The notes under the pieces: generated by a model | Database searches by the model: none | What the model saw: only the letters and a program-made list of their open reading frames with translations | What the model was told of the DNA's origin: nothing | IMG/VR virus record: IMGVR_UViG_3300020378_000054 | Coordinates: 1-21,349 of that record | Strand: one strand, 5' to 3' | Source of the DNA: a virus | DNA length: 21,349 bases | Program-made: the position numbers and the translations under genes | Shown here: one piece after another, positions 1 to 21,349 of the stretch | How the letters are laid out: each line of letters starts with the position of its first letter | Position numbering within the stretch: position 1 is the stretch's first letter

Positions 1-45
1 ACCCACCAGTTAGGAGTAACATGTAGGTATAATAAGGAGTTCGGA

Positions 46-405
46 ATGAAGCCTGCATTATTTATCTTCGCTGACGATCATGGAAGTAGCTGCGTATACG
101 TACATAAATGTGACCTAGCTACAGCCTACACTATGATAACGAACACGGTGACACACGAATGGGCACCGAGTTTGGATAGGTTCAATGCAGAAGAATACTC
201 TGCGTTGTTCATAGCAGCGAATAAGAAAAAACCATTCGACATGATAGTCACTGGCGAGTTCGACGAGACTGGTGACTACGATGACGTAGATACAGTCTAC
301 GAAATCTACAAGTCACACGATGGTAAAGCCATACGAGTGATGCCAGTAACTTCAGATGACGGCGAGACGTTAATCTGGGAGCTGAGAAAAACTCTGCTCC
401 ACTAA
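46..405 (+). CDS. Hypothetical protein, 119 aa
   Basis: I do not recognise this family. The ATG at 46 has a good ribosome binding site (AAGGAGT at 34-40). The product is a soluble, mildly acidic protein of 119 residues with no signal peptide or membrane segment. The C-terminal half is rich in Asp, Glu and Tyr (around residues 72-90) and ends in a short basic and hydrophobic stretch. It reads toward the cobS/cobT-like pair but is separated from it by about 170 bp holding three hairpins and a promoter, so it is probably the last gene of an upstream transcript. It is likely a small phage accessory protein; the function is unknown. Confidence 0.75.
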   Translation: MKPALFIFADDHGSSCVYVHKCDLATAYTMITNTVTHEWAPSLDRFNAEEYSALFIAANKKKPFDMIVTGEFDETGDYDDVDTVYEIYKSHDGKAIRVMPVTSDDGETLIWELRKTLLH

Positions 406-430
406 AAATTCTCTACACGTACGGGCGACC

Positions 431-451
431 AAAAATATCAAAGATATTTTT
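431..451. terminator. AT-rich hairpin after the first gene
   Basis: A perfect 9-bp inverted repeat (AAAAATATC / GATATTTTT) with a 3-nt AAA loop, ending in five T. It lies 26 bp after the stop of the 46-405 gene, where a terminator would be expected. The stem has almost no G-C pairs, so termination would be weak. It is symmetric and could act in either direction. Confidence 0.35.
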
Positions 452-474
452 GAGGAACCTAGAGCTATAGTTCT

Positions 475-516
475 TCGGCAATTCTGCCGAGGTCTATCTT
501 ATGCTGTTCTAGCATA
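475..516. repeat. Two tandem short hairpins upstream of the cobS-like promoter
   Basis: Two perfect 6-bp inverted repeats lie in tandem: TCGGCA/TGCCGA (475-480 and 485-490, loop ATTC) and TATGCT/AGCATA (500-505 and 511-516, 5-nt loop). The second ends five bases before the -35 box at 521. That position suits a regulator binding site. Either could also fold in RNA read from upstream. No family of sites is recognised. Confidence 0.4.
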
Positions 517-520
517 GTAT

Positions 521-549
521 TTGACACGTCGTACGTTGTGTCGTATACA
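521..549 (+). promoter_or_regulatory. Sigma70-type promoter for the cobS-like operon
   Basis: A perfect -35 hexamer TTGACA (521-526), a 17-bp spacer and a -10-like TATACA (544-549). Transcription would start near 556, leaving a leader of about 18 nt before the ribosome binding site AAGGAA (563-568) and the ATG at 574. This also argues against the GTG at 538 as start codon, since it would lie inside the promoter. Confidence 0.6.
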
Positions 550-573
550 CTACTTATTCAACAAGGAAATCAA

Positions 574-2193
574 ATGTCAAACATTACTATCACACGTATT
601 ATTCAAGACCATAACGCTCGTGAAGCACAGAAAGTTCTTCGCGGTGTTATCCAACACAGACTTCCGTACGAGCATGACTTCTGGAAACCAGTTGTCGATG
701 CTGCTTCAAAGTCTTATGCCATAAATCACGATCACAAGAACTCTCGTTCGATGAAAAGTGTCAGCGTCTCGCAGATACTTGATCGTATGAACGTGGACGG
801 CCTTACCTTTCTCATCAACTACTTCAATACGGTAAGCACGGAAGAGGCCGCATTACTTCTTGCAAATGACTTCGCCTATGCGGATTGCATTGAGAAGGTA
901 GCTGACATTACGTCTTGGCCTTTTACGCAAGAAATCGAAACCCTCGCCGAACTGCGTGATACTGACATCGAAAAAGACCTGATGGAAATCGGTGGCTGCG
1001 CTGTCGAGGCAGAGCCAGAAGCTGAGACTGAGGTTGAGGCCGAGGCCGAGCCAGAGGCTGAAGCAGATACATCCGATACGTACGCAGTACCCTCTGCTAT
1101 TGCATCGGCTGCCAACGTACTGCTTGAGGCTGCCACCAACGGTGACGAGACGGACTTGCAAGCTCTGCTTGACGAGCTAGTAACGCTACGCAAGAAGCCT
1201 GACTACGCTGCTGTACCAGAAGTTGACGCTACAGGTGAGATACCGTTCGGTGCACCCATACGTAGGAACGTACAGGATGTGTTCGGTATCCAGCACGAGA
1301 TGCTTAACTTCGACATCAATGTGTACGAGTGGGCAGGCACTAACCCATTGGTGCCAAAGATCGATGAGAACTATATCTTCAACGTCGATGCTCTGCATGA
1401 TTGCTTGTGGGCGCGTAATAATAAAGAGAACGCGTGGCTATCGGGTCATACTGGTACTGGCAAGTCTACCTTTATCGAGCAAGTATGTGCTCGTACTGGC
1501 TACATGTTCATTCGTGTAGGTATGGATAGCGGCATCGAGCGTGACACCTTCATCGGCATCATGGGTCTTGAGGCTGACGATAACGGCAACAACATCAGCA
1601 AGTTCGTAGATGGTATCCTTCCGCAAGCAATGCAAATGCCATGTGTGCTGCTGCTCGATGAGCTTGATGCTGTACGTCCAGACATTGCGTACGTACTGCA
1701 ACCAGTGCTCGAAGGCGGTGCGCTTCGATTGCTTGAGGATGGTGGTCGTCTGGTTCACCCTCACATGGACTTCCACATATGTGCAACTGGTAACTCTACT
1801 GGGCAAGGTGACAGCTCTGGCATGTACGCTGCTGCTGTCAAGGTTCAGTCTCGTGCGATGGTCAATCGGTTCTCTACTCACATTCGTATCGATTACCTAC
1901 CGATTGATGACGAGATGCGTCTTGTTCGCAATGCTGCACCGTCACTGAGCGATCAGGGTATGGGTTATATCCAAGACTTCGTGATGAACTATCGTCAAGG
2001 CTTTCTCGATGGCACGATTGTTACACCCATATCACCACGTAACACCACTACGATTGGCAAGTACGTAGACAGTCTAGAGGATCGTATTGGTACGTTGCCT
2101 GCTGTCAAGAAAGCACTTCACATGAACGTGATGCTGACCATCGATGAAGCTGATGCCATTGCAGTTACTGGCATCATGGATCGCATATCATAA
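574..2193 (+). CDS. cobS: CobS-like AAA+ ATPase (MoxR type)
   Basis: AAA+ ATPase of the MoxR/CobS group, 539 aa. The ATG at 574 is chosen for its ribosome binding site AAGGAA (563-568); a GTG 36 bp upstream lies in the promoter. Residues about 1-140 are helical and unrecognised, and about 145-165 are a Glu/Ala repeat. The C-terminal half follows CobS closely: an N-terminal VFGI-type motif, Walker A GHTGTGKS (291-298), Walker B LLLDELD (359-365), sensor-1 CATGNS (403-408), a putative arginine finger near R432 and the sensor-2 SPR motif (R489). Bona fide CobS is about 330 aa, so some 200 N-terminal residues are extra, perhaps a target-binding domain. It pairs with the CobT-like gene 28 bp downstream. 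No CobN is visible, so a role in cobalt insertion is unlikely; remodelling of a protein target is my inference. Confidence 0.9.
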   Translation: MSNITITRIIQDHNAREAQKVLRGVIQHRLPYEHDFWKPVVDAASKSYAINHDHKNSRSMKSVSVSQILDRMNVDGLTFLINYFNTVSTEEAALLLANDFAYADCIEKVADITSWPFTQEIETLAELRDTDIEKDLMEIGGCAVEAEPEAETEVEAEAEPEAEADTSDTYAVPSAIASAANVLLEAATNGDETDLQALLDELVTLRKKPDYAAVPEVDATGEIPFGAPIRRNVQDVFGIQHEMLNFDINVYEWAGTNPLVPKIDENYIFNVDALHDCLWARNNKENAWLSGHTGTGKSTFIEQVCARTGYMFIRVGMDSGIERDTFIGIMGLEADDNGNNISKFVDGILPQAMQMPCVLLLDELDAVRPDIAYVLQPVLEGGALRLLEDGGRLVHPHMDFHICATGNSTGQGDSSGMYAAAVKVQSRAMVNRFSTHIRIDYLPIDDEMRLVRNAAPSLSDQGMGYIQDFVMNYRQGFLDGTIVTPISPRNTTTIGKYVDSLEDRIGTLPAVKKALHMNVMLTIDEADAIAVTGIMDRIS

Positions 2194-2221
2194 TCAAATT
2201 TCAACCTTCAAGGAGTAACAA

Positions 2222-4288
2222 ATGTTTTCCCAAAATTCTGTATCAGCCCTAGCAACTGAGTTAGACAAACTATCTCGCATCATGGGCAACAAAGACGTAC
2301 GTACCACTTTCAATGGGAGTGGTGCTTACACCGATGGCAAGAATGTGAACGTGCCTGCAATGGACATGGACGCAGAGCTTGACCCAACTCACCAAGCGAT
2401 CATGCGTGGCTACCACATACACGAGGTCAGCCACGTTACCGACACTGACTTCGGCGTGTTCAAGAAGCGTGGCGTCAAGAAGATCAAGGGCACATGGAAC
2501 GCTTGCGAGGACGTGTTCGTAGAGCGCAAGGCTATGGAGAAATTCCCAGGAGCAAGGCGATCTCTCCAACAGACAGTCAATCATGTACTTACGCGTGAGA
2601 ATAAACACTGGGCTGACAACCCAGAGGAAAATGAGAAGCGTCGAGAGAAGTGGTGGACAGAGATACCATACGCTGCTCTGCAAGTGGCTCGTAGGAAGAT
2701 GGGGTACGACAGCGAGGCACTGGATCAGTACATTGATGAAATGCCCAAGGAACTAATGAACGAAGCGCGGAAGTTCTCCACGAAGATGATCGACGCTGAC
2801 AATTCACATGACGCTCTGGCGGTTGCTCGTGCTATCGAGCGACGAATGAAGAAGCTCGGTGAGGATTATGTCGAGGAAGAAGAAGAGAAGAAGAAGAAGC
2901 TACGGCAGTCTGGTGACGACGACAGTAACAACAACAGCGCCGACAAGCAGGATCACGAAGAAGAAGTTACTACTGGTAGCGACAGAGGTGATGATGATGC
3001 TGGCGTCGAGAACCCATCCGATGAGGGTGACGACGGCGATGGTACTGACGGTGCTAATGACAACGACGGTGACGACGATGACGACGATGGCGACGGTACG
3101 AACGGCGGCGGCGGAGACGAGGAAGGTGATGACGACAGCGGCGGTGACGGCGGAGGCGGCGGTGATGACGGCGACGGTGACGACTACGACGACGACGACA
3201 CTGGTACGAACGCTGAACCCATTGATCCTACCGAGGGTGGCTTTAGTACTGAAGAGGCGGAGAAACGTGCGATGGATGCGTTCAATGCTTTGTTCGGGAA
3301 GTATCAAAGCAAGAAGATCGAACTTGTTTGTAGAGACAAGACCGAGGTGTTCGATGACCACGTACAAGTTTGGCAGTATATGTTCGAGGAGGCTAACAAG
3401 AAGATCAATGGCGAGCGCGTAGGTCGTTACCTTCGAGAGAGTATACAGAACTACAGGGATTGGCCCAAGGGTAATGACTTCTCGTGGGTCAAGGAAACCA
3501 CGCGACAGTATTTGGAGAGTATGCCTGATGATGTTCGTCTGTATGCCGCTAGACTTGCACGTCTATTGTTGAGCCAAGAGGACAGACGTAAGGAAGGTGG
3601 TCATCGTTCTGGCAAGCTCGATGCTCGTAGGCTGTCGCAAATCAAAGCAGGCAATACCCATGTGTTTGCACGTAACAGTGTGACCAAGACTGCTGAGACG
3701 CGCATCATGGTTGCGGTTGATGGTTCGTCGAGTATGCAAAATCAGCCTACGATCACTGCGATACTGGCTCTCAACCAGTGTCTTGGTCGTGCCAATGTCA
3801 AGTTTGATATTGTTGAGTGGGGCGGCGTTACGCACGCTCATACCGATGAGGTCTTTGGCAACAAGCCTTGGATGGTTTATCACAAGAGGGCTTCGGACAA
3901 CTGGCGCAAGATTAACACTGGCCTTGAGTTTCAACCAGTCGGCGGCGACACATCTACGCTTTCAGCTATGACTGCTGTTGCTCGCATCATGAGCGAATGG
4001 CAAGAGCCTAGACGTGTGCTCCTGTTCCTTACTGATGGTCGTCCAAACGGTTATACGGACGAGTGCGAAATTGTTGGCAATCTTGTTGCAGACATGTTCG
4101 TTGGCGGTATCGAGACATACGGCGTGTATATCGGTAAAGAGCTGAAAGATGACAGCCCAGCGAACGACTGGATGGGCATGATGTTTGGCGACAAGTGGAC
4201 ACCCACTACGTTCGAGAAGCTAGGCGAGACATTGCTTGGCGGTATCGAGAAGCTACTCATCAAAGGAGGTCACGCTCATGCCGCGTGA
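2222..4288 (+). CDS. cobT: CobT-like protein: HExxH domain, acidic linker, VWA domain
   Basis: CobT-like partner of the preceding ATPase, 688 aa, with ribosome binding site AAGGAG at 2210-2215. Three parts are visible. The N-terminal domain carries HEVSH at residues 67-71, a match to the HExxH zinc-protease motif, with a candidate third ligand E96 in a CED motif 25 residues on. Residues about 218-333 are an extreme Asp/Gly/Glu low-complexity linker, a feature also known between the domains of genuine CobT. The C-terminal VWA domain starts near 493 and shows the MIDAS set: D500, S502, S504 (DGSSSM), a Thr at 577 or 579, and D605 in LTDG. AAA+/VWA pairs act as co-chaperone machines in which VWA binds the target or the ATPase. 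Protease activity is an inference from the motif. Annotation as cobalt chelatase would be over-specific. Confidence 0.88.
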   Translation: MFSQNSVSALATELDKLSRIMGNKDVRTTFNGSGAYTDGKNVNVPAMDMDAELDPTHQAIMRGYHIHEVSHVTDTDFGVFKKRGVKKIKGTWNACEDVFVERKAMEKFPGARRSLQQTVNHVLTRENKHWADNPEENEKRREKWWTEIPYAALQVARRKMGYDSEALDQYIDEMPKELMNEARKFSTKMIDADNSHDALAVARAIERRMKKLGEDYVEEEEEKKKKLRQSGDDDSNNNSADKQDHEEEVTTGSDRGDDDAGVENPSDEGDDGDGTDGANDNDGDDDDDDGDGTNGGGGDEEGDDDSGGDGGGGGDDGDGDDYDDDDTGTNAEPIDPTEGGFSTEEAEKRAMDAFNALFGKYQSKKIELVCRDKTEVFDDHVQVWQYMFEEANKKINGERVGRYLRESIQNYRDWPKGNDFSWVKETTRQYLESMPDDVRLYAARLARLLLSQEDRRKEGGHRSGKLDARRLSQIKAGNTHVFARNSVTKTAETRIMVAVDGSSSMQNQPTITAILALNQCLGRANVKFDIVEWGGVTHAHTDEVFGNKPWMVYHKRASDNWRKINTGLEFQPVGGDTSTLSAMTAVARIMSEWQEPRRVLLFLTDGRPNGYTDECEIVGNLVADMFVGGIETYGVYIGKELKDDSPANDWMGMMFGDKWTPTTFEKLGETLLGGIEKLLIKGGHAHAA

Positions 4289-4598
4289 TCTCAAACTACC
4301 CAGAGCATTTGACCCGAAGGTCAATCCCACCATGAAACGAGAGTGGTTCAAGCTGGCTGATGGCTGGCGACCACACTCATGGTGGTGGCATGTGGCGTAC
4401 GTCATCCGATCAAAGCGCGTACGCCACGCCGATGAAGAAAAGATTAAGCGCGTGATGCGCCTAATCGATAACAAACTTCCCCATCTACAGGAGGACTACA
4501 CTCGTGGAAGTACTAACACAAGCAGTACTCTGCCTAGCTATGAACGTATACTTCGAGGCTCGGTCAGAGGATACGAGGGGACAACTCGCAGTGGCTGA
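4278..4598 (+). CDS. Small basic hypothetical protein, 106 aa
   Basis: Unrecognised protein of 106 aa. The ATG at 4278 lies inside the end of cobT (11-bp overlap) and has a near-perfect ribosome binding site, AAAGGAGGT, at 4262-4270; an in-frame start 42 bp upstream has none. It is basic, with a Trp/His-rich centre (a run of three Trp and a His around residues 35-38) followed by a charged helix. The last ~32 codons overlap the start of the SleB-like gene by 95 bp in another frame and have Ser/Thr/Gly-rich composition, suggesting the tail is overprinted. No known domain is recognised; the good start signal is the main support. Confidence 0.7.
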   Translation: MPRDLKLPRAFDPKVNPTMKREWFKLADGWRPHSWWWHVAYVIRSKRVRHADEEKIKRVMRLIDNKLPHLQEDYTRGSTNTSSTLPSYERILRGSVRGYEGTTRSG

Positions 4599-4890
4599 AG
4601 TCACACTCAATCGAGTGAAGAGCGAGAAATACCCAGACAATATCTGTGATGTCGTGTGGCAACGGAAACAATTTTCTTGGACACATGATGGGAAGAGCGA
4701 CAACCCAAAGCATAAGAAAGCATGGGAGAAAGCGCAGCGAATAGCGTTGTTCGCTCTTAGCACAGACAACAAGATAGTGGGAGATGATGTCACCCACTAT
4801 CACGCAACCTACAGCCAACCGTATTGGACAAGTTCTTATGAGCGCGTTGGGAAAGTTGGAACACATATTTTCTACAAGAGGAAGGGCTAA
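4504..4890 (+). CDS. SleB-family cell wall hydrolase (Hydrolase_2)
   Basis: Peptidoglycan hydrolase of the SleB/Hydrolase_2 family, 128 aa, which cleaves glycan strands (lytic transglycosylase type in characterised members). It starts at a GTG (4504) with AGGAGG at 4489-4494. Family marks seen: NVYFEAR with the presumed catalytic E18, GQLAVAEVTLNRV, the YPDNICDVV segment, QFSW, and the C-terminal THYHA and GTHIFYKR blocks. It has only the catalytic domain, with no signal peptide, membrane segment or wall-binding domain, so export would depend on a holin or on packaging in the virion. It lies far from the amidase/spanin lysis genes at 9.4-10.5 kb. It may be a second endolysin or act in entry. 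Confidence 0.9.
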   Translation: MEVLTQAVLCLAMNVYFEARSEDTRGQLAVAEVTLNRVKSEKYPDNICDVVWQRKQFSWTHDGKSDNPKHKKAWEKAQRIALFALSTDNKIVGDDVTHYHATYSQPYWTSSYERVGKVGTHIFYKRKG

Positions 4891-4895
4891 AGAAT

Positions 4896-5069
4896 ATGTT
4901 AGTAAAGAACGAAGTTGAGGTAGTGAACGCTATCAGACGTATGGAATTGAAGGTGGATAACTTACGCCTTGAGTTCAAAGCAACAGGCAACCCACGAAAG
5001 TATGACATGGATGAAGTGCTTTCGTTAATCGAGAAATTAAAATCGAATTTGCAGGGAGGTCGGGCATGA
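4896..5069 (+). CDS. Small hypothetical protein, 57 aa
   Basis: A short gene encoding 57 aa, beginning MLVKNEVEVVNAIRRMELK. It starts five bases after the SleB-like gene, with a modest purine-rich ribosome binding site in the end of that gene, and its TGA overlaps the next ATG (ATGA at 5066-5069). It is predicted largely helical and charged. The gap-free fit between two genes and the coupled stop support it being real. The function is unknown. Confidence 0.65.
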   Translation: MLVKNEVEVVNAIRRMELKVDNLRLEFKATGNPRKYDMDEVLSLIEKLKSNLQGGRA

Positions 5070-5906: not shown

Positions 5907-5941
5907 TCATGTACTAGGGGGCACCCGATAAGGCCCATAGA

Positions 5942-6105: not shown

Positions 6106-6178
6106 ATGTCTATAAAACCGAAGCGCACTCACGTCTTACGCACAGGTGAGCCTTCGTCCATCAAGACCCACCCGATTA

Positions 6179-6907: not shown

Positions 6908-6932
6908 CGCTCACGATGAGGTGATATTTGAA

Positions 6933-6999: not shown

Positions 7000-7039
7000 C
7001 TTAGCAGGGGAGCGCCTTCGACCACTCGGCCACATCTCC
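7000..7039 (-). other. Putative attP core: first 40 nt of a tRNA-Ser(GCU) gene
   Basis: Read on the minus strand, 7039 to 7000 is the 5' half of a bacterial tRNA-Ser: acceptor strand GGAGATG, TG, D arm GCC...GGC with the GTGGTCGAA loop, anticodon stem CTCCC and loop CTGCTAA (anticodon GCT). After one more base, tRNA similarity stops: the expected GGGAG, variable arm, T arm and CATCTCC acceptor strand are absent. A tRNA fragment next to an integrase gene is the usual signature of a phage attachment site. That it keeps the 5' half, not the 3' half, is unusual. Confidence 0.65.
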
Positions 7040-7046
7040 GTGAACG

Positions 7047-7135: not shown

Positions 7136-8146
7136 CTACGAGAGCGACATCACGGCTGCTTTATGATCTTCATAGGTGGTGTTCATATATCGCATCACCA
7201 TTTTCAAATCACTATGCCCAAGTAAATCAGCGATCACTTTAGGCGGTATGCCATTTCGTGCAAGACGAGTGGCAAAGGTGTGGCGTAGTGTGTACGGACT
7301 TTTATTTATCTTTAGTTTATCCGTCACCTTACGCCAATGATACCCGATCTGCTTGTTCGTTTCGAACGGTCTGCCCTCTAGCAGAAACGGATATAAACTT
7401 GGCGGTGGATCACTGCGAGGAATTGTTGCGAGTGCCTTGTCATTGAGGGGCACCCGACGCTCCCTGAGTTCTCCATCTGCTCCTTTGTACGAGCCGAGGA
7501 CTACCGTACTATTGGTGAAGTCTACGGCTGTATAAGTTAAACGCATTGCTTCTATTGGTCGTGCGCCAGTATGAAGTAAGAAAGTACACAAGCGTCGTAC
7601 ATCTGGATGCAGATCAGGAAAGATTAAGTCTATCTCTTCCTGAGACAGAGTATCAGTTTTGTGTTTACCTTCTCTTGGCTTCTTTATTTTTATCTGTTCA
7701 CGCAACCCCAAAGATGCAGCAAAGTTTAATACACCTTGTAGTTGGTTTAGGTCGCGTCTGATGGTTGAGTTCGCATTACCTTTATTGACGTGTATCTCTT
7801 CAACGTATTCCTCAATGTCATTGAGGTCTATCTTGTTGACTTGATACTCACCAAAGTAATCCGACAATCGCATTACATAATCCACTGTAGACTTTGAGCT
7901 GCCAGTATGCGGCGACTTTAAATATCTACGTGCTACGGATTTGAATTTGTTTTGTGCTCCGTGAATACTCTTCGCACCTAACTTAATCGCACCCGATAAA
8001 ACCTTCGCCTCAAACTCAGCGCATAGGTCTTTAGCATGGATGTAATCGGTTGTACCTAGCGAGTGGCGTACACGTAATTTATTGTACGTACCGACTGCTT
8101 GGTAAACATTACCACCAGATCGCTTTTTAACTTTAAATAACGGCAT
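7136..8146 (-). CDS. int: Tyrosine recombinase / phage integrase
   Basis: Site-specific tyrosine recombinase, 336 aa, which joins attP to a chromosomal attB. Residues about 1-55 resemble the N-terminal DNA-binding strand domain, 63-150 the core-binding (SAM-like) domain, and 165-330 the catalytic domain. Catalytic set: R196 (HTGARPIEA), probable Lys at K221, R288 in YTLRHTFATRL, H311 (LGHSD) and nucleophile Y320 (MRYMNT). The first His of the HxxR box is replaced by Tyr (Y285), a known variant. The ATG at 8146 has GGGAG a few bases upstream. The 3' end lies about 100 bp from the tRNA-like attP core. It is the last gene of a leftward cluster with a LuxR-like regulator. Confidence 0.95.
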   Translation of the reverse strand: MPLFKVKKRSGGNVYQAVGTYNKLRVRHSLGTTDYIHAKDLCAEFEAKVLSGAIKLGAKSIHGAQNKFKSVARRYLKSPHTGSSKSTVDYVMRLSDYFGEYQVNKIDLNDIEEYVEEIHVNKGNANSTIRRDLNQLQGVLNFAASLGLREQIKIKKPREGKHKTDTLSQEEIDLIFPDLHPDVRRLCTFLLHTGARPIEAMRLTYTAVDFTNSTVVLGSYKGADGELRERRVPLNDKALATIPRSDPPPSLYPFLLEGRPFETNKQIGYHWRKVTDKLKINKSPYTLRHTFATRLARNGIPPKVIADLLGHSDLKMVMRYMNTTYEDHKAAVMSLS

Positions 8147-8150: not shown

Positions 8151-8363
8151 TTACACTCCCTTCGGTGGGGCTAGGGGAACTACAGGGCTACCCCATGCTC
8201 CGCTCCCAACCCAGTCCGATTGCGGTACTCCGCACCGAACTAAACATCTGATTTTCTGTAGAGATTTGTGAACATAGCTGTCGTGAAATCTCGATACTAA
8301 GTAAGCCCATCTAAACTTTGGGTCTGGATGTCTTACAGATATATCTTGGGGTGGTTTATACAT
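8151..8363 (-). CDS. Small hypothetical protein between regulator and integrase, 70 aa
   Basis: A 70-aa ORF starting MYKPPQDISVRHPDPKF. Its ATG overlaps the stop of the LuxR-like gene (TAATG at 8361-8365) and a GGAAGGTG-type ribosome binding site lies just upstream. It ends five bases before the integrase start. The N-terminal half is basic and could bind DNA; the tail is Gly/Pro-rich. The position upstream of int suits an excisionase, but no excisionase motif is visible. Function unknown; the tail composition leaves some doubt that the whole frame is coding. Confidence 0.5.
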   Translation of the reverse strand: MYKPPQDISVRHPDPKFRWAYLVSRFHDSYVHKSLQKIRCLVRCGVPQSDWVGSGAWGSPVVPLAPPKGV

Positions 8364-8905
8364 TACTCTACACCTTCCCTTCGATATATTGCAGCGTGTG
8401 GATCGTTGCCGACTTCAAAAGTCCGTGCCCAATCTACTGGCAAACCACCAGAGGCTTTCTGGTAATCTGACGGATCAACTCGTTCGAATATTTCATTCAA
8501 GACGAGAGCTGCTTGACCCCTTGTTTTTGTACCCACTTTCTTACAGACGGCTCGCACATGTAGCTTCACTGTATTCTCCCCTATATTGAGGACTTGGCCT
8601 ATGTCTTTGTTTGACCAACCTTCAATCAGGAGTTGTGATGTTACATGCTGCTTTGAAGTCATAGTACGTAGCAGAGAAAGTTCTGCTGCTGATACTTTAA
8701 CTTCTGGGCTGAGTACGTCCTTTGAAGTGGCAGTACTATTACTAAGTAATAGATTTGTAATAATGTCCAACTTCGCCTCTATTCTGGCTAGGTCGAACTT
8801 CAAAGTTTGTACTGACATGTTTTCTTTCTGATCGTTAAAAGTTGATAAGTGAGTTGATAGAAGTTTATCTTCTATATCTGATATGTAGTGCTTACGATAC
8901 ACCAT
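8363..8905 (-). CDS. LuxR-type helix-turn-helix regulator
   Basis: DNA-binding regulator, 180 aa. The ATG at 8905 is chosen because AAAAGG lies nine bases upstream; a longer frame would need a TTG at 8935 without support. Residues about 85-140 match the LuxR/GerE HTH: LLIEGWSNKDIGQVL, then the recognition part IGENTVKLHVRAVCKKVG and the closing RGQAAL. The N-terminal 60 residues include a predicted helix (DLARIEAKLDIITNLL) that could dimerise, but no receiver or autoinducer-binding domain is visible. It probably controls the integrase cluster or lysogeny; its signal is unknown. Confidence 0.85.
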   Translation of the reverse strand: MVYRKHYISDIEDKLLSTHLSTFNDQKENMSVQTLKFDLARIEAKLDIITNLLLSNSTATSKDVLSPEVKVSAAELSLLRTMTSKQHVTSQLLIEGWSNKDIGQVLNIGENTVKLHVRAVCKKVGTKTRGQAALVLNEIFERVDPSDYQKASGGLPVDWARTFEVGNDPHAAIYRREGVE

Positions 8906-8979
8906 TGTCAACAACCTTTTAATAATTACGCACAACTTTGTACGTAAGACACTGATAATAAATGAAACTTTTTTAAACT

Positions 8980-12046: not shown

Positions 12047-12424
12047 TTAAGAAAGAGAGCCTTTCTCTAGTAAGTACGCAAGGTAAAGTTCTCGCCAATC
12101 GTGCAATCTCATGACCACTAAACTCTCACCCAGTTTCTCGCCGTTACGTCGAGTAATGACGACTGGTTTTTCTGGTGCGTGTGTAAGTCGTATGTTTCTT
12201 TCGGCTTGCTTCAAAGCCTCCCGTACATTCAATCGTTCGACACGTTTTGCTTCTATAAAAATATCTGGCGTACCGATTATGTCGGCACCACCCACTACTC
12301 CTATCTTACCGCCACCCGAAAGTGGCGCTCGCTGGCATCGATTTTCGTTAAAGATGTGATCGTTGAACCAATGTGCTAGGTCTACTTCGTACCTATCACC
12401 TTTTCTTTTCTGTGGATTAGCCAT
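12047..12424 (-). CDS. PD-(D/E)XK Holliday-junction-resolvase-like nuclease
   Basis: A 125-aa nuclease resembling archaeal Hjc-type and phage resolvase-like PD-(D/E)XK proteins. Motifs: KGDRYEVDLAHWF (E13), a Ser/Gly-rich loop APLSGGGK, GADIIGTPDIF with candidate D48 or D54, and IEAK (E58, K60). These give the E...D...ExK active site. The likely role is cleavage of branched DNA in replication or packaging. The start at ATG 12424 overlaps the preceding stop (TAATG), with a GAGGTG ribosome binding site. It lies in one leftward cluster with the HTH/zinc protein. Confidence 0.82.
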   Translation of the reverse strand: MANPQKRKGDRYEVDLAHWFNDHIFNENRCQRAPLSGGGKIGVVGGADIIGTPDIFIEAKRVERLNVREALKQAERNIRLTHAPEKPVVITRRNGEKLGESLVVMRLHDWRELYLAYLLEKGSLS

Positions 12425-13035: not shown

Positions 13036-14964
13036 TTAACTTTGAGAGTTAGATACCCACGATGCGGTTACTGTTTCTCGGACTGATTTTGTCCAATCTT
13101 CTACTGTCGAAACAGGACGACCTACCCTATCAGCAATCTCCCCATCTGATAGTGGTGGGCGAATTGCGCCTGTCGCATCTGTCCATTCTTTAGCAAACCC
13201 CAGTGCTCTTTGCTTCGCTGTCTTGGGACTGATTACTTTTACTGTGTCGTCCAAAGAAGATGAGGTGAACGCTAAATTATATACTGGCTCATGGGCATCT
13301 GACCACTCTCTTACCTTGCCGTATCTTAATTGCATCATCACATCTATACGGCGACCTTCCGCTTCAGCAGCAGCAAGTATATCAGGAAACGGACTAGCAG
13401 GAATATTACCTTCGTAGATGCCTGCCTTAACTTCAGCAGTCTCTTGATCCCAATAGACCTGTGTAATCTTTATCTGGGTTTCGAGTACAGTAAGTTGGTT
13501 AGAGCTTCCTGCTTCCCTGCCCGACGCCGAACCCTCTGACGGTTTGTTGCTGTGATGCAGCAACCAAACAACCAAGCCTGCATTACGTAACTTCAAACAC
13601 AGTTGGTTGATGTACCCCCATTGTTCAGCAGAGTTTTCTTGCAGACCTGGGAACGCCGAACGAATGGTATCGATTACCACATGCGTAGGCTTCGTAGCTT
13701 TTATCCACTGCTCAAAGTTTTTGATACCTGTTTCGTTCATAAGGTTCATATCACGTTGGTCATGGAACGGTGCCCAGATCATAAAGTCATCGGCTGCATC
13801 TCCGTACGAACGACGCGATCTATCAAGAAACTTAGCGATGTTAGCTCTGCTGTTCTCAAAGTCGAAATACAAAACTTTCGATCTCTCGTTCAGATCAAAC
13901 GGCCCGAAACGATATTGCCCAGAACACGCTGCGTACAGAAGATTACGTACGAACATAGACTTACCATGTCCACTGTACCCAAACACTTGAACAATCGTGC
14001 CTGTTGTTGGGACAATCGGATCAATAAAGAACTTCATATTATCCACGTACTTCTGTAACTCTTCTAAGCTATCAGTAGTAATTGGTTTGAATACGCTAGG
14101 CTCTGGCTGTTTAACCTCTACTATATTACCCTTACGGATCTCAGCTTGCTCTGCCCTTTCACACATCTGGCGAACTTTTTTCTCGTCGATATGATTTTGG
14201 AAAAACTCATTCATAAAAGAGTAAGCACCGAACTCTAGCTCTGCACCCCTCTCTCCCTGTCCAGCAAGTGAGCATATATACTTATAAAGTCTGTCGTCTC
14301 TGCCGTTACCACCACCGTCAGGTAGTTTACCCACCTTTGCAACTAACTCTTCGGTGCGCTGCCAGATAGGTTTCTCTACATACACGTCGTTAAGGTTCAT
14401 GCCTTCTAGACGAAATTGGCTGATGTCTATTACATTACTAGACTTCTGAACTGTGTATCGAGGCGGTGTATATACAGGCATATCATCGAAGTCAGTGCCC
14501 TCTGATATAACCCATTCGTAATTCTTAGATGGTGGTGCAAGACAATAACCTTTTGACCCACGCAAATCTAAGCCGTCGATCTGAGGCCATTCACTACCAT
14601 CAGTTGTAGAGCCTGCTCTATTTTTTATCCAACCTGATCCGCTTGGATATTCGAAGTAGAAGTGACGACCACGTTTTGTCTTTACTTGTATTGGCGTTTT
14701 AGTAAGGCCATACTTTTCTGCTGCTTTAAGAGCCTCATCATTATCACAATCGACAATGACGAGGCCGCTTAGTTCGCATGAAGCAATAGCAACATTAGCA
14801 TCTGGTGATCTTTTCCACCACGAAATTACTTCTTCTTCTGTCGGTAATCTCTTTTCGTCAACATAGACACCCCACTTTTCCGTAGGCTGCTTAGTATCCT
14901 GTGCGATTGGTATCGGTAGCCATCCTCGATCCAGATACTCTAGTGCTGCGTCCAATGTGTTCAT
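13036..14964 (-). CDS. Primase-polymerase / RecA-fold helicase fusion
   Basis: Replication protein, 642 aa, joining a bifunctional primase-polymerase (prim-pol, AEP) domain to a RecA-fold (AAA_25/RepA-like) helicase. The prim-pol part covers about 1-170, with D72 and D74 (VDCDND), H101 (RHFYF) and D133 in GLDLRG followed by the APPS motif. The helicase part covers about 300-540, with Walker A GYSGHGKS (329-336), Walker B VVIDT (D432) and the LLHHSNK motif. Residues about 575-625 hold an HTH-like segment (LSDGEIADRVGRPVSTVEDW) that could bind the origin. The ATG at 14964 has GGAGG just upstream and lies inside the Cro-like gene. It primes and unwinds phage DNA. Confidence 0.92.
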   Translation of the reverse strand: MNTLDAALEYLDRGWLPIPIAQDTKQPTEKWGVYVDEKRLPTEEEVISWWKRSPDANVAIASCELSGLVIVDCDNDEALKAAEKYGLTKTPIQVKTKRGRHFYFEYPSGSGWIKNRAGSTTDGSEWPQIDGLDLRGSKGYCLAPPSKNYEWVISEGTDFDDMPVYTPPRYTVQKSSNVIDISQFRLEGMNLNDVYVEKPIWQRTEELVAKVGKLPDGGGNGRDDRLYKYICSLAGQGERGAELEFGAYSFMNEFFQNHIDEKKVRQMCERAEQAEIRKGNIVEVKQPEPSVFKPITTDSLEELQKYVDNMKFFIDPIVPTTGTIVQVFGYSGHGKSMFVRNLLYAACSGQYRFGPFDLNERSKVLYFDFENSRANIAKFLDRSRRSYGDAADDFMIWAPFHDQRDMNLMNETGIKNFEQWIKATKPTHVVIDTIRSAFPGLQENSAEQWGYINQLCLKLRNAGLVVWLLHHSNKPSEGSASGREAGSSNQLTVLETQIKITQVYWDQETAEVKAGIYEGNIPASPFPDILAAAEAEGRRIDVMMQLRYGKVREWSDAHEPVYNLAFTSSSLDDTVKVISPKTAKQRALGFAKEWTDATGAIRPPLSDGEIADRVGRPVSTVEDWTKSVRETVTASWVSNSQS

Positions 14965-15257: not shown

Positions 15258-15677
15258 ATGGAAGATGACATTATATTCGGTGACGTCCGTATATCTATTC
15301 CTACTCACCCAAAACAAGATCGGCTACGCGAACACGCTGCACAGTATGTAGATACCCTCGCAAAACTTGAGCATCTGAAGGATAACATAGACTATCTTAA
15401 AGAAATATTGCTCTCTGATCTACCCCAAGAGGCAGGAGAATACCCTATCGAAATGGACGACGGACGTACTCTGATGATTAAGATACCAGAGAAATGGACG
15501 TGGGATAAGAAGTTGTTGAAAGATACCTACGAAGTATCTGGACTTCCCGAATGTGTATCACAAAGTTTTCTCGTTGATCGGAAAAAATACGAAGCCGCCC
15601 CCGACAACGTGAGAGAGGTGCTGAAGAAAGCACTGACTATTCAATGCGGCTCACCAACAATCAAGGTTCAATCATGA
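15258..15677 (+). CDS. Hypothetical protein heading the recombination operon, 139 aa
   Basis: A 139-aa soluble protein, first gene of the rightward operon, with AAGGA eight bases upstream. It has a helical N-terminal half (REHAAQYVDTLAKLEHLKDN) and a C-terminal half with strands and a WTWDKKLLKDTYE segment. No domain is recognised. Coupling to the Sak4-like gene by ATGA suggests a role in recombination or replication, perhaps as a partner or loader. This is by position only. Confidence 0.75.
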   Translation: MEDDIIFGDVRISIPTHPKQDRLREHAAQYVDTLAKLEHLKDNIDYLKEILLSDLPQEAGEYPIEMDDGRTLMIKIPEKWTWDKKLLKDTYEVSGLPECVSQSFLVDRKKYEAAPDNVREVLKKALTIQCGSPTIKVQS

Positions 15678-16453
15678 AGATAACACCATTAAAAACAACG
15701 GATGCTACTGTTAGTAGCAAGTCGAAGAGCTTGGTGTATGGGCCACACGGATCGGGTAAGACTACCCAGTGTGCGAATTACGCCAAACGATATGGGAAGG
15801 GGATCATTCTATCAGGCGAGGGTGGGCTTTCGTCTATCTCTGATATGGAAATAGATTACCTTCCCTTCAGTACGTTTAAAGCAGAGCCTAAAAGAGAGGG
15901 CACTTATTCTTTTAAACAGTTGATGCAATACATTGCTTCAGATGAGTTTAAGAAAGAGAAGTACCAGTGGCTCGCGATAGACAGTGTGACCGAGCTTTCG
16001 CAAAGATGTTTTGCAGAAGTTGAGAAAGCACAAGAAGGTAAAGCAAACGGTTACGATCTTTGGAGTACCTATGGGCGAGAGATAACTGCTGCGCTCAAGT
16101 GGGTAAGAGATTTAGATATGCACGTTGTCATGATGGCTCTCGCTACTGCGAAGTCTGATGATAACGGCACTACAATGTACTGGCCTATGATGAACCAAGC
16201 TAAGATTTCGGAGCTGTTGCCTGCGTTATTCGATAATGTGTTTGCGTTGCTTCGAAAGACTAACGACCAGAACGGAAAGATTAGCGTTCAAAGGTACTTG
16301 GTAACTGAACAAGTGGGTGGTTGGTACGGCAAGGTTCGTGACCCCAACCGTCGTCTAGCTCCGTTCGAGAGCGAGCACGATGTCACCAAGTTATTGGATA
16401 TAATTTACATGAAAGATGATGAGTACAAAAAGAGGAGTACAGTAAATGAGTGA
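15674..16453 (+). CDS. Sak4-like RecA-fold ATPase (AAA_24)
   Basis: Single-strand annealing/recombination ATPase of the phage Sak4 type, 259 aa. The ATG at 15674 overlaps the previous TGA (ATGA). Walker A GPHGSGKT is at residues 23-30 and Walker B WLAIDS at 99-104 (D103). The VVMMALA strand (151-157) and a conserved QVGGWYG/KVRDPN-type end complete the RecA core. Sak4 proteins are half-size RecA relatives that pair DNA with the help of an SSB, and here an SSB-like gene follows with an 8-bp overlap, then an exonuclease. That order makes the assignment firm. Confidence 0.85.
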   Translation: MKITPLKTTDATVSSKSKSLVYGPHGSGKTTQCANYAKRYGKGIILSGEGGLSSISDMEIDYLPFSTFKAEPKREGTYSFKQLMQYIASDEFKKEKYQWLAIDSVTELSQRCFAEVEKAQEGKANGYDLWSTYGREITAALKWVRDLDMHVVMMALATAKSDDNGTTMYWPMMNQAKISELLPALFDNVFALLRKTNDQNGKISVQRYLVTEQVGGWYGKVRDPNRRLAPFESEHDVTKLLDIIYMKDDEYKKRSTVNE

Positions 16454-16889
16454 TTTCATGGGACTAGAAGGCATGGACTTGTCTGATGTCGAGGTAAACA
16501 CTAATAAAATATTAGGTGTTGGTCGGCACGTTGTTAAGATAAGTGATGCTGCTGTTGAGAAAGACGATAGTAAAAACACTGCGCGTCTTGTTCTCTCTTA
16601 CGAAAATTCGGATGGCAATATTCGCCAGTGGATTTACGTGTATCACGGTGGATCACCAAAGGCTACTGAAGTAGGTAAGAAGCAGCTTAAAGAGTTGCTT
16701 TTAATGGTAGGTCACGATGGTCAGGAAGCGCCTAACCCATCTTACTTAAAAGGTAAGACTGTCGGCATTAATGTGAAGAACGAAGAGTACATGGGTAAAA
16801 CTCAGTCGAAGGTTTCTTATTTCTTTACACCAAAAGAAAAAGAAAACTCTGGCACATCAGCGCCTATGGATGATGAAATACCATTCTAA
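16446..16889 (+). CDS. Single-strand DNA-binding-like protein (DUF669 type)
   Basis: A 147-aa protein with an OB-fold-like body (strands around 25-65 and 100-128) and a C-terminal tail ending MDDEIPF. This copies the acidic DDxIPF tip by which bacterial SSB recruits partner proteins. The family resembles DUF669 phage proteins, which accompany Sak4-type ATPases. It starts at ATG 16446 with AGAGGAG upstream, overlapping the Sak4-like gene by 8 bp, and ends in TAATG with the exonuclease gene. It probably coats single-stranded phage DNA and recruits the Sak4-like ATPase or nuclease. Confidence 0.82.
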   Translation: MSDFMGLEGMDLSDVEVNTNKILGVGRHVVKISDAAVEKDDSKNTARLVLSYENSDGNIRQWIYVYHGGSPKATEVGKKQLKELLLMVGHDGQEAPNPSYLKGKTVGINVKNEEYMGKTQSKVSYFFTPKEKENSGTSAPMDDEIPF

Positions 16890-17716
16890 TGCACCCAGTA
16901 CACCCACTAGCCCAGAGCGTTCTTGACGCTATAGATCATGGGTACGAACAAGAAGATCGAGGAGAGGCGCGGTGTTACATCGGCGCGAGCATGGCAGGGA
17001 CAGATTGCGTAGCGCAAATGTCTCTGTCTCTTCGTGGTTTTCCTGACGTCAATATAGATCCACAACTCGCACGTATTTTTTTTGCAGGACACAAGATCGA
17101 GGATTGGGTTGTGTATGACCTAAAACGAAGGGCTGATCTAAGGGTGTACGAGAAAGACGATATGACTGGTCGTCAGCATAGGAAGGAATGGTTAAGCGGT
17201 CATGTGGTTTGTAACTCAGATGGACTTGTAGATTTCGAAGATGGTTCGGGTCAAGCAATCCTAGAGATCAAATCAATGAACGATGCCAACTTTAAGAAAT
17301 TTATGTCAGTCGGAGTTAAGGCATCCCATCGAAAATATTATCGGCAAATGCAGATGATGATGGCGATGTTTAGGATCGAGCGCAGTTTGTTTGTTTCGTA
17401 CAATAAAAATAACTCTCAATATCATTGTGAAATAGTTTCATTCGACCAAGAAGAATGGGACGAAATGTACGTCAAGATACAAGCAGCACTCGATGGGCAG
17501 GCAGGACGCGTTGCTACAGCGCCCGAAGATTGGAGATGCAAGTCGTGCTTCAAGAGGGAAAGTTGTTGGGAAGTCCCAGATGTTAGTCCTGCCTGTCGTT
17601 TCTGTAAGAATAGTTTTGCGAATAAAGATGGTGGGTGGACATGCAAGCTAGACAATCGAGAGTGTACTGACCCTTGTGACAAGTATGAAATGTTTAGGCC
17701 AACCGAGAAAGTATAA
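16889..17716 (+). CDS. Cas4/RecB-like PD-(D/E)XK exonuclease
   Basis: Exonuclease of the PD-(D/E)XK (RecB/Cas4) family, 275 aa. Motifs: GHKIED (H68, E71), the SDGLVD acidic motif (D111 or D115), LEIKS (E126, K128) and the YYRQMQ motif (Q153). C217xxC220x5C226 is the Cys spacing of the Cas4/AddB iron-sulphur cluster, and C29 or C40 near the N-terminus could give the fourth ligand. A second Cys group (C236, C239, C252, C259, C263) forms an extra C-terminal module, perhaps a zinc finger. It starts at ATG 16889 within TAATG. It should resect DNA ends for the Sak4/SSB pair. Confidence 0.87.
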   Translation: MHPVHPLAQSVLDAIDHGYEQEDRGEARCYIGASMAGTDCVAQMSLSLRGFPDVNIDPQLARIFFAGHKIEDWVVYDLKRRADLRVYEKDDMTGRQHRKEWLSGHVVCNSDGLVDFEDGSGQAILEIKSMNDANFKKFMSVGVKASHRKYYRQMQMMMAMFRIERSLFVSYNKNNSQYHCEIVSFDQEEWDEMYVKIQAALDGQAGRVATAPEDWRCKSCFKRESCWEVPDVSPACRFCKNSFANKDGGWTCKLDNRECTDPCDKYEMFRPTEKV

Positions 17717-17949
17717 TGATGGATACATTTAACGAACTGAGTGATGCACGGCAGGGCATAATAAGAAAAGAAGCGGAGATCGAAAGTATCTACGAAAGAC
17801 TAGACGCTTTAGATATGACGGACTTGGACGATATTCATCGTGCCAAAACAAAATTAAGGCATGAGAAAGAGCGTTTAGTTGATCTCAAATGCAGAGCGAC
17901 AGAACTGGAAATTGATTTGATGAGAATGGGATACGCCAAGAATGTCTAA
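17716..17949 (+). CDS. Small coiled-coil protein, 77 aa
   Basis: A 77-aa protein, nearly all helical and charged, with heptad-like Leu/Ile spacing across residues about 15-70. It starts at ATG 17716, overlapping the exonuclease stop (TAATG). It ends 8 bp inside the next gene. It has no enzyme motif. The tight coupling points to an accessory role in the recombination operon. Confidence 0.7.
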   Translation: MMDTFNELSDARQGIIRKEAEIESIYERLDALDMTDLDDIHRAKTKLRHEKERLVDLKCRATELEIDLMRMGYAKNV

Positions 17950-18253
17950 GCTGCGCGACCTTCCTTTGGATGAGGGCAAAAGATTAATTAACACTGACCG
18001 CAACCAAGAATATGGCGAGCCGTACGATAACTTTTCTGATATAGCTGCGATGATAACGGCTATACTACGAAGCATCCTCAAGGATGGTGAGCGCGTACGT
18101 GTTGAGCATGTGGCAATGATAATGATTATCGTGAAACTTTCACGCATGACCACATCACCCGATAAGTTCGATAGTTGGGCAGATATTGCAGGCTACGTAG
18201 GAACTGGGTGGGAAGCTATTGCTGTGGATCGGGGTATAGACACTAACGACTAA
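17942..18253 (+). CDS. DUF6378-like phage protein, 103 aa
   Basis: A 103-aa helical protein. The pattern YGEPYDNFSDIAAM, then VAMIMIIVKLSRM, then DSWADIAGYVGTGWE matches the DUF6378 family, common in phages and often placed near nucleotide or replication genes. The conserved His/Asp/Glu layout recalls all-alpha nucleotide pyrophosphohydrolases, but no function is established and I do not claim one. It is the last gene of the rightward operon, and its stop overlaps the stop of the convergent virion gene by 4 bp, leaving no room for an intergenic terminator. Confidence 0.75.
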   Translation: MSKLRDLPLDEGKRLINTDRNQEYGEPYDNFSDIAAMITAILRSILKDGERVRVEHVAMIMIIVKLSRMTTSPDKFDSWADIAGYVGTGWEAIAVDRGIDTND

Positions 18254-21200
18254 CTACCCCAACCGTTACCCCATCCTGATTTGCTGCCGCCTTTTTTGCT
18301 GCGCTCTCCTGCAACAGCATCGACAATACCTTCTTTAGCCCAAGACACGCCGCCTAGTACTGGTACTCGTCCGACTATTTCTCGAACTGCTGCTCTCTTT
18401 TCTCCGTTGGTATCGTCTTGATCCCACCATGATCGGGCACCTTGAAGCACAGTCGTAGCGTCGTTGAATAAACCAACTGTCGGGCCACCGAGTGTTTCTA
18501 GGTTTCTCTGTGCTCCGTACGCACCGTTATCGGCTTGTGAGGCTATGTCGTACGCCAACTCACCCATTAAGCCTAGACCGCCTAAAGCCATCATACCATC
18601 GAAGTACCAACCCATAAGCATGTCCATATCTTCGTTTTCTTCAAAGGCAGTGGTAAGTGTTTCAGAGAGTTTTCGTTCACGCAATTTAAACTCTCTATTA
18701 TCTTCGCCGCCACGACCTTGAATGATGTCTTTCGTACCGACAGCTACGCCACCCATTGCAGGGCCAGCAACTAGAAGTGCAGCCAGTGGCGCAAGTCTGT
18801 TATCGCTTTGCCCTACGAAGGCTTTTACAAAGTTAGCACCACGTTCAGCAGGAGTGTTACCTCTAAACGCTTCGCCAGCTACTGTATTTATTAGTCGTGT
18901 CATCATCAAAGGATAAGACTTCAACTGAAACGCAATTGCTCCTAACGGTGTTTGTGCCCACAAAGGTATGTCATTTGGGTTAGGCGTGAAGATCATTTGG
19001 TTTGTTAGTTTAATCATAGAAGAAGAAACTTTATCAGCCAACGGATGTTCGTTATTTGTAAAACGACTTTCCATTATCATATCTAAATCGAGTGACTGAT
19101 CTTGTACTAACTCAGATAGACCCTCTTCGTTTAGTATACGTCTAGCAATCCGACCAGCTCTAGAGTTCGGACGGTTTCTCAAAATCCTATGCTGGGCTTT
19201 TACGTGTTCGTACGATACGGCAGCAGCCACATCTCTCATCATGTCAGTCCAGGGAGTAAGTAGCGTAGCGTTAAAAAAGCCAGTCATAAACTGCGTACTG
19301 TCTACACCATGAGCTACCGTAAGTCTTTGATGTACTGCGTTTTCTGTAGCAGCGCCAATGTTACGGATCATATCTCGATACTCTGGGTCAGTCGCAAACT
19401 TACGAAGAGATTTAATATACGCACCCGTGTCACCCGTTCGTATCAACGGAAGTATTAAGTCGCCAAGAGACGTTAGAGTTGTGAACCCAAGCAGTGTAAC
19501 CGCATTTACTCCACGCAACCATTTCGAGGCATTACGCATAGAGAATGTTCCGTGCACTCCATCGATAGGTCGTCGCATTGCAGAGTTCATAAACCCTTGT
19601 GCGTGCTGTAAGTTTCTATTTGATGGCACCTCCATCAGACCTTTTGTGTCACCTAACGCATTGGCTATTGCAGCAGCTCTTTTCTTAAAGTTATTACGTA
19701 AAACTTCTGCGTCTGGGTTGTCGTTTAGCTGATCTCCAAGAAGCTCCATAATGTTAGCTTCTATCTCAGGTGCCGATCTACCGTCTTGTGCCATATCAAT
19801 AAGCTGTTGAGCTTTTTGTTCTGCCTCAAACTTATTTTTTATTGGAGCGTAAAAGACATCATTTCTAAACGTCTGTGATTTGGTGCCGTGATCTGTCATA
19901 CCAGAACGCGTCCAATTAGTTGTGATTATTTTATTGCTAGAAAGCAACTTGCCAATCACCTGTCTAGCGTTCATAGGCTGAGATAAGATAGCCATGTAAT
20001 CATGGTATCCATGTGCACCTACTCCAAATTTTTCTGATATGTCTATACGATGCTCTAAGTTGTCACTGTATTTAGTCATAGCAACGAGCAAGTCATTCTC
20101 TAAAAACACGCCCAAGCTGTCAGGTACATCCATATCAGCAAACTCTGGGAACTCATCAAGACGTATAAGTCTTGTGTAGTCTAAGTGATCTGACTGATCT
20201 CCTGCTTTATCAGCATTACGTTTGAAGTTCTGCGCTGGGTTAGAGAACACACCATCTTCATCAATAAGCCTTTGTAGTACGCGTCGAGCAGATGCTTCTG
20301 CTTTGGCTGCTTCGCCTGTCCCGTTTCTTTCTGCCAAGAAATATTTTTTAAGTCTGCGAACAAACTCCTCTGGGTCAGCTTGGATCAAGTCCTTGCGCCA
20401 TATTTGTGGAAAATAGTTTTTCTTTAAGTTACCAACAAGAGCACCAGATGCACGCAATCGACCAGTAGCTTCGTCAAGATAACCACGTACATGGTCATAT
20501 GTAATCCTTTCTGAAGGGTCTAGTTCGCCAACTTTATTTACATCTCGTAACGCACTGATAATACGCAAATGACTAGCAGGCTGTGTCATACGACGTTTTG
20601 GGTTGATACCCATTGCGCCCATTGCGCTTTCAGCCATCATTTGCGGCCCCGTTCGCCAGTAGTTTGCGAGCTTGTTTTTACTATCAGGTAATTCTTTTAG
20701 CATTTTTGTAAGCGGTATAATAAACTTACCCATCTTCGCGTTTGTTCGCTCGAAGTGACCGCCACTTCCATCTTTAGGCTCGAAGAAATTGGCAAGGTTT
20801 GAAATGCCCGAACGATCCATTATTTTTGAGTTTGTTTTCCAAGGAAGATAAATGTTTGATTTACGTATCTCGGCTGCTGCTTCAGACGGCATACCTCTGC
20901 CCCTGGCAACTGATATCATTGCTTCAAGTGTACGAGCAGGAACGCCAGCTTCTTCCAGTTCGCCTGCTGCCTGACTAATAACGCGTATTGCATTGTCGCC
21001 TTCAACGGCTTGGATTATTCGACCATTGATTGAGTGTTGCTGAGAACCCTCACCAATAACAGGAGTAGCTGCTTCAAACACATCGCTTCGTAGGTTACGA
21101 ACGCTTTTGTTCGTCAGCATCATTTTGACGTCACCAAGATTTACGCTAGTAAAACCAGCACTTTGCATTGACTTCTTAAACTTACGAACACCGCCCATAA

Positions 21201-21349
21201 TGCCAATAACTCTACGCGCCATCTGTTCGCCAGAATGTATACCCGTTATTGCATCAAGTTCGTTGGCTTCTCTGTTTTTGCCTAGCGATCTCATCTGCCC
21301 TATTAATGTAGTAATAAGATCGTCTGACCCTGCCATGTTATCTGTAAAA
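18250..21349 (-). CDS. Large virion (internal or ejection) protein, 5' end probably outside the window
   Basis: A very long phage protein of at least 1028 aa. The first ATG in the window is at 21336, but it has no ribosome binding site and the frame stays open to the right edge, so the N-terminus probably lies outside. It is rich in helices, Ala, Arg and Asn. Hydrophobic stretches occur near residues 617-632 (NAVTLLGFTTLTSLGD), about 855-870 and about 920-935 (counted from 21336), and the tail is Gly/Lys/Ser/Trp-rich. Size, composition and a mosaic of weakly conserved helical domains fit internal virion or large polyvalent proteins ejected with DNA in podovirus-like phages. No enzyme motif is seen in this part. 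Confidence 0.7.
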   Translation of the reverse strand, partial: FTDNMAGSDDLITTLIGQMRSLGKNREANELDAITGIHSGEQMARRVIGIMGGVRKFKKSMQSAGFTSVNLGDVKMMLTNKSVRNLRSDVFEAATPVIGEGSQQHSINGRIIQAVEGDNAIRVISQAAGELEEAGVPARTLEAMISVARGRGMPSEAAAEIRKSNIYLPWKTNSKIMDRSGISNLANFFEPKDGSGGHFERTNAKMGKFIIPLTKMLKELPDSKNKLANYWRTGPQMMAESAMGAMGINPKRRMTQPASHLRIISALRDVNKVGELDPSERITYDHVRGYLDEATGRLRASGALVGNLKKNYFPQIWRKDLIQADPEEFVRRLKKYFLAERNGTGEAAKAEASARRVLQRLIDEDGVFSNPAQNFKRNADKAGDQSDHLDYTRLIRLDEFPEFADMDVPDSLGVFLENDLLVAMTKYSDNLEHRIDISEKFGVGAHGYHDYMAILSQPMNARQVIGKLLSSNKIITTNWTRSGMTDHGTKSQTFRNDVFYAPIKNKFEAEQKAQQLIDMAQDGRSAPEIEANIMELLGDQLNDNPDAEVLRNNFKKRAAAIANALGDTKGLMEVPSNRNLQHAQGFMNSAMRRPIDGVHGTFSMRNASKWLRGVNAVTLLGFTTLTSLGDLILPLIRTGDTGAYIKSLRKFATDPEYRDMIRNIGAATENAVHQRLTVAHGVDSTQFMTGFFNATLLTPWTDMMRDVAAAVSYEHVKAQHRILRNRPNSRAGRIARRILNEEGLSELVQDQSLDLDMIMESRFTNNEHPLADKVSSSMIKLTNQMIFTPNPNDIPLWAQTPLGAIAFQLKSYPLMMTRLINTVAGEAFRGNTPAERGANFVKAFVGQSDNRLAPLAALLVAGPAMGGVAVGTKDIIQGRGGEDNREFKLRERKLSETLTTAFEENEDMDMLMGWYFDGMMALGGLGLMGELAYDIASQADNGAYGAQRNLETLGGPTVGLFNDATTVLQGARSWWDQDDTNGEKRAAVREIVGRVPVLGGVSWAKEGIVDAVAGERSKKGGSKSGWGNGWGS

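Follow-up and report, generated by a model that had tools for sequence, protein, structure and literature searches.

The site GANTC is entirely absent from the virus record IMGVR_UViG_3300020378_000054 of IMG/VR (21,349 bases; the entire contig, referred to here as the window), and its loss is real and strongly selected. Judged by its genes, the window is a piece of an approximately 55-kb temperate phage genome and belongs to the CRP-810-type family, a group of marine phages whose description was based on a cultured phage of Roseobacter CHUG (Wu et al. 2024, PMC11288001). Purifying selection currently keeps GANTC out of the window's clade, and the set of avoided words switches between clades of the family. 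The explanation that we favor, with moderate confidence, is escape from restriction.

Loss of GANTC and its current maintenance

The exact count of GANTC in the window was 0 (the site is palindromic, so counting one strand is enough), against 82 expected from base composition and 50 from a maximal-order Markov model. Codon shuffling, in which synonymous codons were redealt among the window's own genes with every protein and the codon usage preserved, gave 47.7 ± 5.6 sites (range, 32 to 61; 300 draws), a null far from zero. Each of the four variants of the site was missing (11 to 13 expected apiece). The 1,950 bases that lie beyond the genes of the codon analysis also lacked GANTC. Among the 16 five-base palindromes with a central N, GANTC alone stood at zero, the sole further clear deficits being CCNGG and GGNCC (8 each, approximately 21 expected).

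A TCN serine codon directly 3′ of an aspartate or glutamate codon always creates GANTC. All 30 serine codons following Asp or Glu in the window were AGY and none TCN; elsewhere in the window, 108 of 350 were AGY and 242 TCN, and in CRP-810 the codons following Asp or Glu were evenly divided (32 AGY versus 31 TCN; n = 63). This split indicates a purge operating at the DNA level through synonymous choice.

That the zero stems from composition, codon usage, or a general dislike of palindromes is hardly credible. GG/CC words are low in the window genome, and AATT and similar 4-mer palindromes are mildly low, but codon shuffling still yields 32 to 61 sites, and the sister words GATC, TCGA, GTAC, GCGC, AGNCT, GTNAC, and TGNCA lie close to or over expectation. 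Composition and codon bias were rejected on these two grounds.

Three other words were missing from the window, namely CCGG (27 expected), GGWCC (18 expected), and CCCGC (14 expected); RGATCY (4 observed/18 expected), CCWGG (8/19), and GGCC (26/48) were depleted, and GAAGAC (0/11) and ACCTGC (0/9) gave further zero counts. Known Type II specificities (HinfI, HpaII, AvaII, BstYI, and EcoRII) account for most of the missing words. Over-represented under codon shuffling were CGTAC (101; 52 expected) and TACGAA (45; 20 expected).

The loss extends to relatives; the IMG/VR contigs compared represent fragments of genomes. In a first set of 22 relatives, with protein identities reaching as low as 53%, no member had a GANTC. 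The site was also missing from long contigs of 55.0, 55.3, 56.7, and 53.3 kb (G001, G005, G007, and G022), for which 210, 215, 220, and 206 sites were expected from base composition, a null that runs higher than the codon-aware one. Six contigs pooled (283 kb) held 0 sites versus 1,095 expected.

Between the window and G001, 2,881 substitutions (13% nucleotide divergence) created no GANTC. Approximately 31 new sites were expected when the same substitutions were redealt randomly within base and codon-position classes, a null in which amino-acid selection enters through codon position only, and 35 without the codon-position rule. Relatives at 26 to 30% divergence likewise showed 0 new sites where 27 to 46 were expected. 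Similarly built control words came close to the random-substitution null, with only TCNGA clearly below it, and CCGG and GGWCC acted like GANTC. It is thus very unlikely that the absence is a relic of ancestral pressure only, with GANTC never having returned: an absence shared by descent over a large part of the family would fit such a relic, but the missing 31 to 35 and 27 to 46 sites do not, and a relic without current selection was rejected for the window's clade by the substitution test.

An earlier sequence-only reading of the window had claimed that GANTC was absent, that about 83 sites would be expected at equal base frequencies, and that strong selection was responsible. The absence and the figure were both correct; selection was borne out at the DNA level by codon shuffling and the serine codons, and the substitutions to relatives show it to be ongoing. 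The comparisons which that reading had proposed, with Markov and codon-shuffled expectations and with relatives, gave the results above. It had not noticed that CCGG, GGWCC, and CCCGC were missing as well or that further words were depleted.

Genes, family, and probable host

The features of the window are as follows.

1..21349, whole window: phage DNA without GANTC, CCGG, GGWCC, or CCCGC (word counts)
538..2193, plus strand: CobS-like AAA ATPase, a family marker (40% to CRP-810 gp06)
2222..4288, plus strand: CobT-like VWA protein, a family marker
7000..7039, minus strand: attP candidate with the sequence GGAGATGTGGCCGAGTGGTCGAAGGCGCTCCCCTGCTAAG, a tRNA-Ser(GCU) 5′ half that runs as far as the anticodon loop
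7136..8146, minus strand: tyrosine integrase
8363..8935, minus strand: LuxR-type regulator, present in CRP-810 too
12047..12424, minus strand: Holliday junction resolvase (50% to CRP-810)
13036..14964, minus strand: bifunctional primase/polymerase with AAA_25, a family core gene
15644..16453, plus strand: AAA_24/Sak4-like ATPase, a family core gene
16889..17716, plus strand: PD-(D/E)XK (YqaJ/Cas4-type) exonuclease, a family core gene and the basis of the family tree
18250..21336, minus strand: 1028-aa virion protein, the query for the closest relatives

The core replication genes of the CRP-810-type family (Prim-Pol, AAA ATPase, PD-(D/E)XK nuclease, and Holliday resolvase) and cobS/cobT are present in conserved order, at 30 to 50% identity to CRP-810. 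Core genes, synteny, and lifestyle are shared by the window and the family (PMC11288001). Window proteins were 29 to 50% identical to those of CRP-810, and gene order was collinear with G001 (55 kb, 87% identical to the window). The capsid, portal, and TerL genes fall outside the window and were read in G001, where identities to CRP-810 were 69% (major capsid protein), 69% (portal), and 59% (TerL). The integrase gene indicates a temperate phage. Scanning the window against Rfam and for tRNA genes gave no useful match.

The attP candidate sits downstream of the integrase and is conserved in GANTC-free relatives; the same arrangement (tRNA-Ser(GCU) 5′ half) was seen in L025, L027, L030, L036, L040, and L073/L127. 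Extended to a 44-mer of the complete tRNA, the attP of the closest relatives matched exactly the plasmid tRNA-Ser of Qingshengfaniella, Ponticoccus, and Thioclava (Rhodobacterales), from which the window's attP departs by one stem base. The T arm of tRNA-Ser held GAATC in 8/8 bacterial copies examined; since attP ends at the anticodon loop, this GANTC-bearing arm of the host tRNA need not be carried by the phage. An integrase and an attP at a tRNA gene are thus shared by the window and the family, but the window uses tRNA-Ser, whereas CRP-810 integrates at tRNA-Thr (PMC11288001). A phage-borne tRNA-Thr(GGU) was found in the CRP-810 subgroup (L150, L154, L159, L161, L162, L178, L187, and L023); its T arm reads TTCAATC or TTCAATT, giving an RNA gene without GANTC in GANTC-free contigs.

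Homology to CRP-810, a Roseobacter phage, and the attP match to Rhodobacterales tRNA-Ser point to an alphaproteobacterial host, probably of the Rhodobacterales. The sequence-only reading had proposed an alphaproteobacterial host from the missing GANTC; that host stands, supported by homology and attP and not by the missing site itself. Such a host would methylate GANTC, to judge from its lineage (attP and the relation to CRP-810) and the literature (PMC11514494). No CRP-810-type prophage was found in 397 genomes of the candidate bacterial family, which carries the exact attB and, judging from the tRNA match, probably belongs to the Rhodobacterales, or in the 80 viral contigs whose tRNA-Ser site was intact. 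Three matches in genome contigs were distant and came from metagenome-assembled genomes of three phyla; other viral contigs bearing that tRNA-Ser contained GANTC.

Avoided words and methylases across the family

Among non-redundant family contigs 7 kb or longer (n = 72), a word was scored as avoided at an observed/expected ratio below 0.1 and as tolerated at a ratio above 0.3. GANTC was avoided in 56/72 contigs and tolerated in 12/72. On the exonuclease tree it changed 4 times versus 6 to 9 for CCGG, GGWCC, CCWGG, and RGATCY; these counts are approximate, because the tree was made from a single gene by a quick method and has many weak branches. CRP-810 (OR671924; 57.7 kb) held 105 GANTC and 67 CCGG, and GANTC is tolerated in two or more further clades. 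One contig, L184, held 58 GANTC, yet no GATC and no GGCC. A few scattered sites occurred in G041 (10), G042 (20), and G034 (4), and clades holding 2 to 20 such sites may be in transition or true relics in decay. These counts show that the avoided set switches between clades of the family.

In CRP-810, GGWCC, CCWGG, and RGATCY were all at 0 (132, 132, and 55 expected by composition), an observation that concerns L023 and L042 alongside CRP-810. Motif avoidance goes unmentioned in the abstract, results, and discussion of the CRP-810 paper (PMC11288001). Among contigs that are members or distant relatives of the family, L184 and L185 had zero GATC and GGCC with many GANTC, and L198 to L200 had 0 GATC with many GANTC.

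Methylases were sought by several routes. PF01555, PF05869, and PF02086 had no match in 55 to 57 CRP-810-type records, no homologue of the phiLM21/CRP-902-type methylase was found in the CRP-810-type DNA examined, and the [ND]PP[YFW] methylase motif was absent from the window and ten long family contigs. A phage methylase releasing CRP-810 or L105 from avoidance was considered, and none was found in these searches; CRP-810 gp19 matched small-molecule-type methyltransferase families. A C5 cytosine methylase was seen in the low-GC L107-L109 clade (G034:C1:7552-8550 and G036:C1:7381-8511) and in no other of 43 records. Of the four GANTC left in G034, one (position 7605) falls within this gene, as if from recent acquisition.

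Outside the family, the HMO-2011-type roseophage CRP-902 (OQ401624, 2554-3108) encodes a small NPPF methylase with 32% identity to the proven GANTC methylase phiLM21_p027. GANTC was non-zero in 57/57 HMO-2011-type contigs with a CRP-902-like methylase (467 observed versus 2,041 expected) and in 25/25 relatives without it. A general rule of methylating the site or eliminating it was rejected, since the methylase does not track elimination in these phages.

Restriction or methylation as the cause

If escape from restriction is the cause, the hosts met by the GANTC-free lineage would carry a HinfI-like enzyme cutting unmethylated GANTC, and the host's own sites would be protected by CcrM or a cognate methylase. 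The lineage, which has been purged of GANTC and which purifying selection keeps free of it, largely by the choice among synonymous codons, would then enter such hosts freely. CCGG, GGWCC, and the other missing words would be read in the same way. We infer the cutting enzyme, the protection by CcrM, and the exact host alike.

Restriction and CcrM had been held as equal alternatives in the sequence-only reading; the present data favor the first and weaken the second. Restriction is preferred because CCGG, GGWCC, and CCCGC, words without a CcrM target that match Type II specificities, are also missing, the avoided sets form a clade mosaic, CRP-810 tolerates 105 GANTC, and coding DNA has been purged. 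An indirect argument comes from alphaproteobacterial phages of other groups that carry a GANTC methylase gene (Decewicz et al. 2017, PMC5537653): a methylated GANTC can evidently be borne, and the likelier liability is an unmethylated one. According to Rusinov et al. 2018 (PMC6286503), a site that phages have eliminated is almost always that of an orthodox Type II system.

Weighing against restriction are several points of different kinds, among them the breadth and steadiness of the avoidance: GANTC is the most widespread and least-changing avoided word among those that vary (4 versus 6 to 9 changes), which would suit a constant host feature, e.g., CcrM. To our knowledge, the presumed hosts have no known enzyme that cuts GANTC. 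The literature presents CcrM as a methylase with no cognate endonuclease (PMC11514494), complete Type II site elimination is rare in temperate phages (PMC6286503), and SAR11 has no recognized restriction-modification (R-M) system, yet its prophage and approximately half of the pelagiphages are GANTC-depleted (PMC9516812). HMO-2011-type phages retain GANTC both with and without the methylase. RE_HpaII (CCGG) had no match in 298 genomes from the candidate family with exact attB, although restriction endonuclease families diverge fast; RE_Eco47II (GGNCC) was not found in the same 298 genomes, in a search that had no working control.

That same breadth and stability would also agree with a CcrM-linked cost without restriction, in which host-methylated or hemimethylated GANTC would harm the phage through GcrA recruitment, replication, CcrM titration, or a methylation-reading nuclease. 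CcrM occurs in nearly all Alphaproteobacteria (PMC11514494), SAR11, with its depleted phages, has CcrM-type methylation (PMC9516812), and gene transfer agent regions of Rhodobacterales have the lowest GANTC density on their chromosomes (PMC9836097). However, CRP-810 integrates in an alphaproteobacterium despite its 105 sites (PMC11288001), and the further GANTC-tolerant clades of the family do not fit such a cost; regulatory harm would be expected at promoters, yet coding DNA was purged as well; some phages carry a gene for a GANTC methylase (PMC5537653); and the loss of CCGG, GGWCC, and CCCGC from the same genome needs a separate cause anyway. We regard a CcrM-linked cost as unlikely, with an appreciable chance of being right.

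A more speculative form of the restriction reading, which we consider doubtful, is that marine alphaproteobacteria widely carry an unrecognized solitary nuclease that cuts unmethylated GANTC, the essential CcrM mark serving as self-signal. Were this so, the cell-cycle methylase CcrM would become the modification half of a restriction system, and, as CcrM is conserved, phages would meet the barrier in host after host. It would explain the breadth and stability of GANTC avoidance and the loss of the site from pelagiphages whose hosts have no recognized R-M system.

Site avoidance by phages and GANTC depletion in marine alphaproteobacterial phages are already known (PMC6286503 and PMC9516812), and the strategy is not a new mechanism. 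The GANTC-depleted pelagiphages and the SAR11 NP1 prophage (Seong et al. 2022, PMC9516812) likewise combine marine alphaproteobacterial hosts with GANTC methylation, clade-wise depletion, and temperate members, but belong to other phage groups; in the window's lineage the loss is total over 55-kb genomes and currently selected, and CCGG, GGWCC, and CCCGC have disappeared too, as part of a mosaic that differs by clade. Type II site elimination (Rusinov et al. 2018) is likewise a complete removal of short palindromes from double-stranded DNA phages by synonymous change; it is uncommon in temperate phages, whereas here several sites are gone at once from an integrase-bearing lineage. Cultured CRP-810 differs in tolerating GANTC and avoiding GGWCC, CCWGG, and RGATCY instead. 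Phage CcrM-like GANTC methylases (Decewicz et al. 2017) are an alternative route to safety from cutting at unmethylated GANTC, and the searches of CRP-810-type records described above turned up no such methylase. What is new is that temperate phages through a deep part of the CRP-810-type family show a total, currently maintained GANTC loss, together with an exchange of avoided sites that can be followed from one clade to the next.

Under the restriction reading, the missing words would document the cutting activities that phage DNA meets in uncultured hosts. For this family such a record is legible at the level of clades, with GANTC avoided almost everywhere and CCGG, GGWCC, CCWGG, RGATCY, GATC, and GGCC in scattered clades. 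It makes testable why phages of CcrM-bearing bacteria seemingly without a GANTC restriction enzyme purge GANTC, and CRP-810, with its 105 sites and cultured host, forms a natural pair for comparison with a GANTC-free relative.

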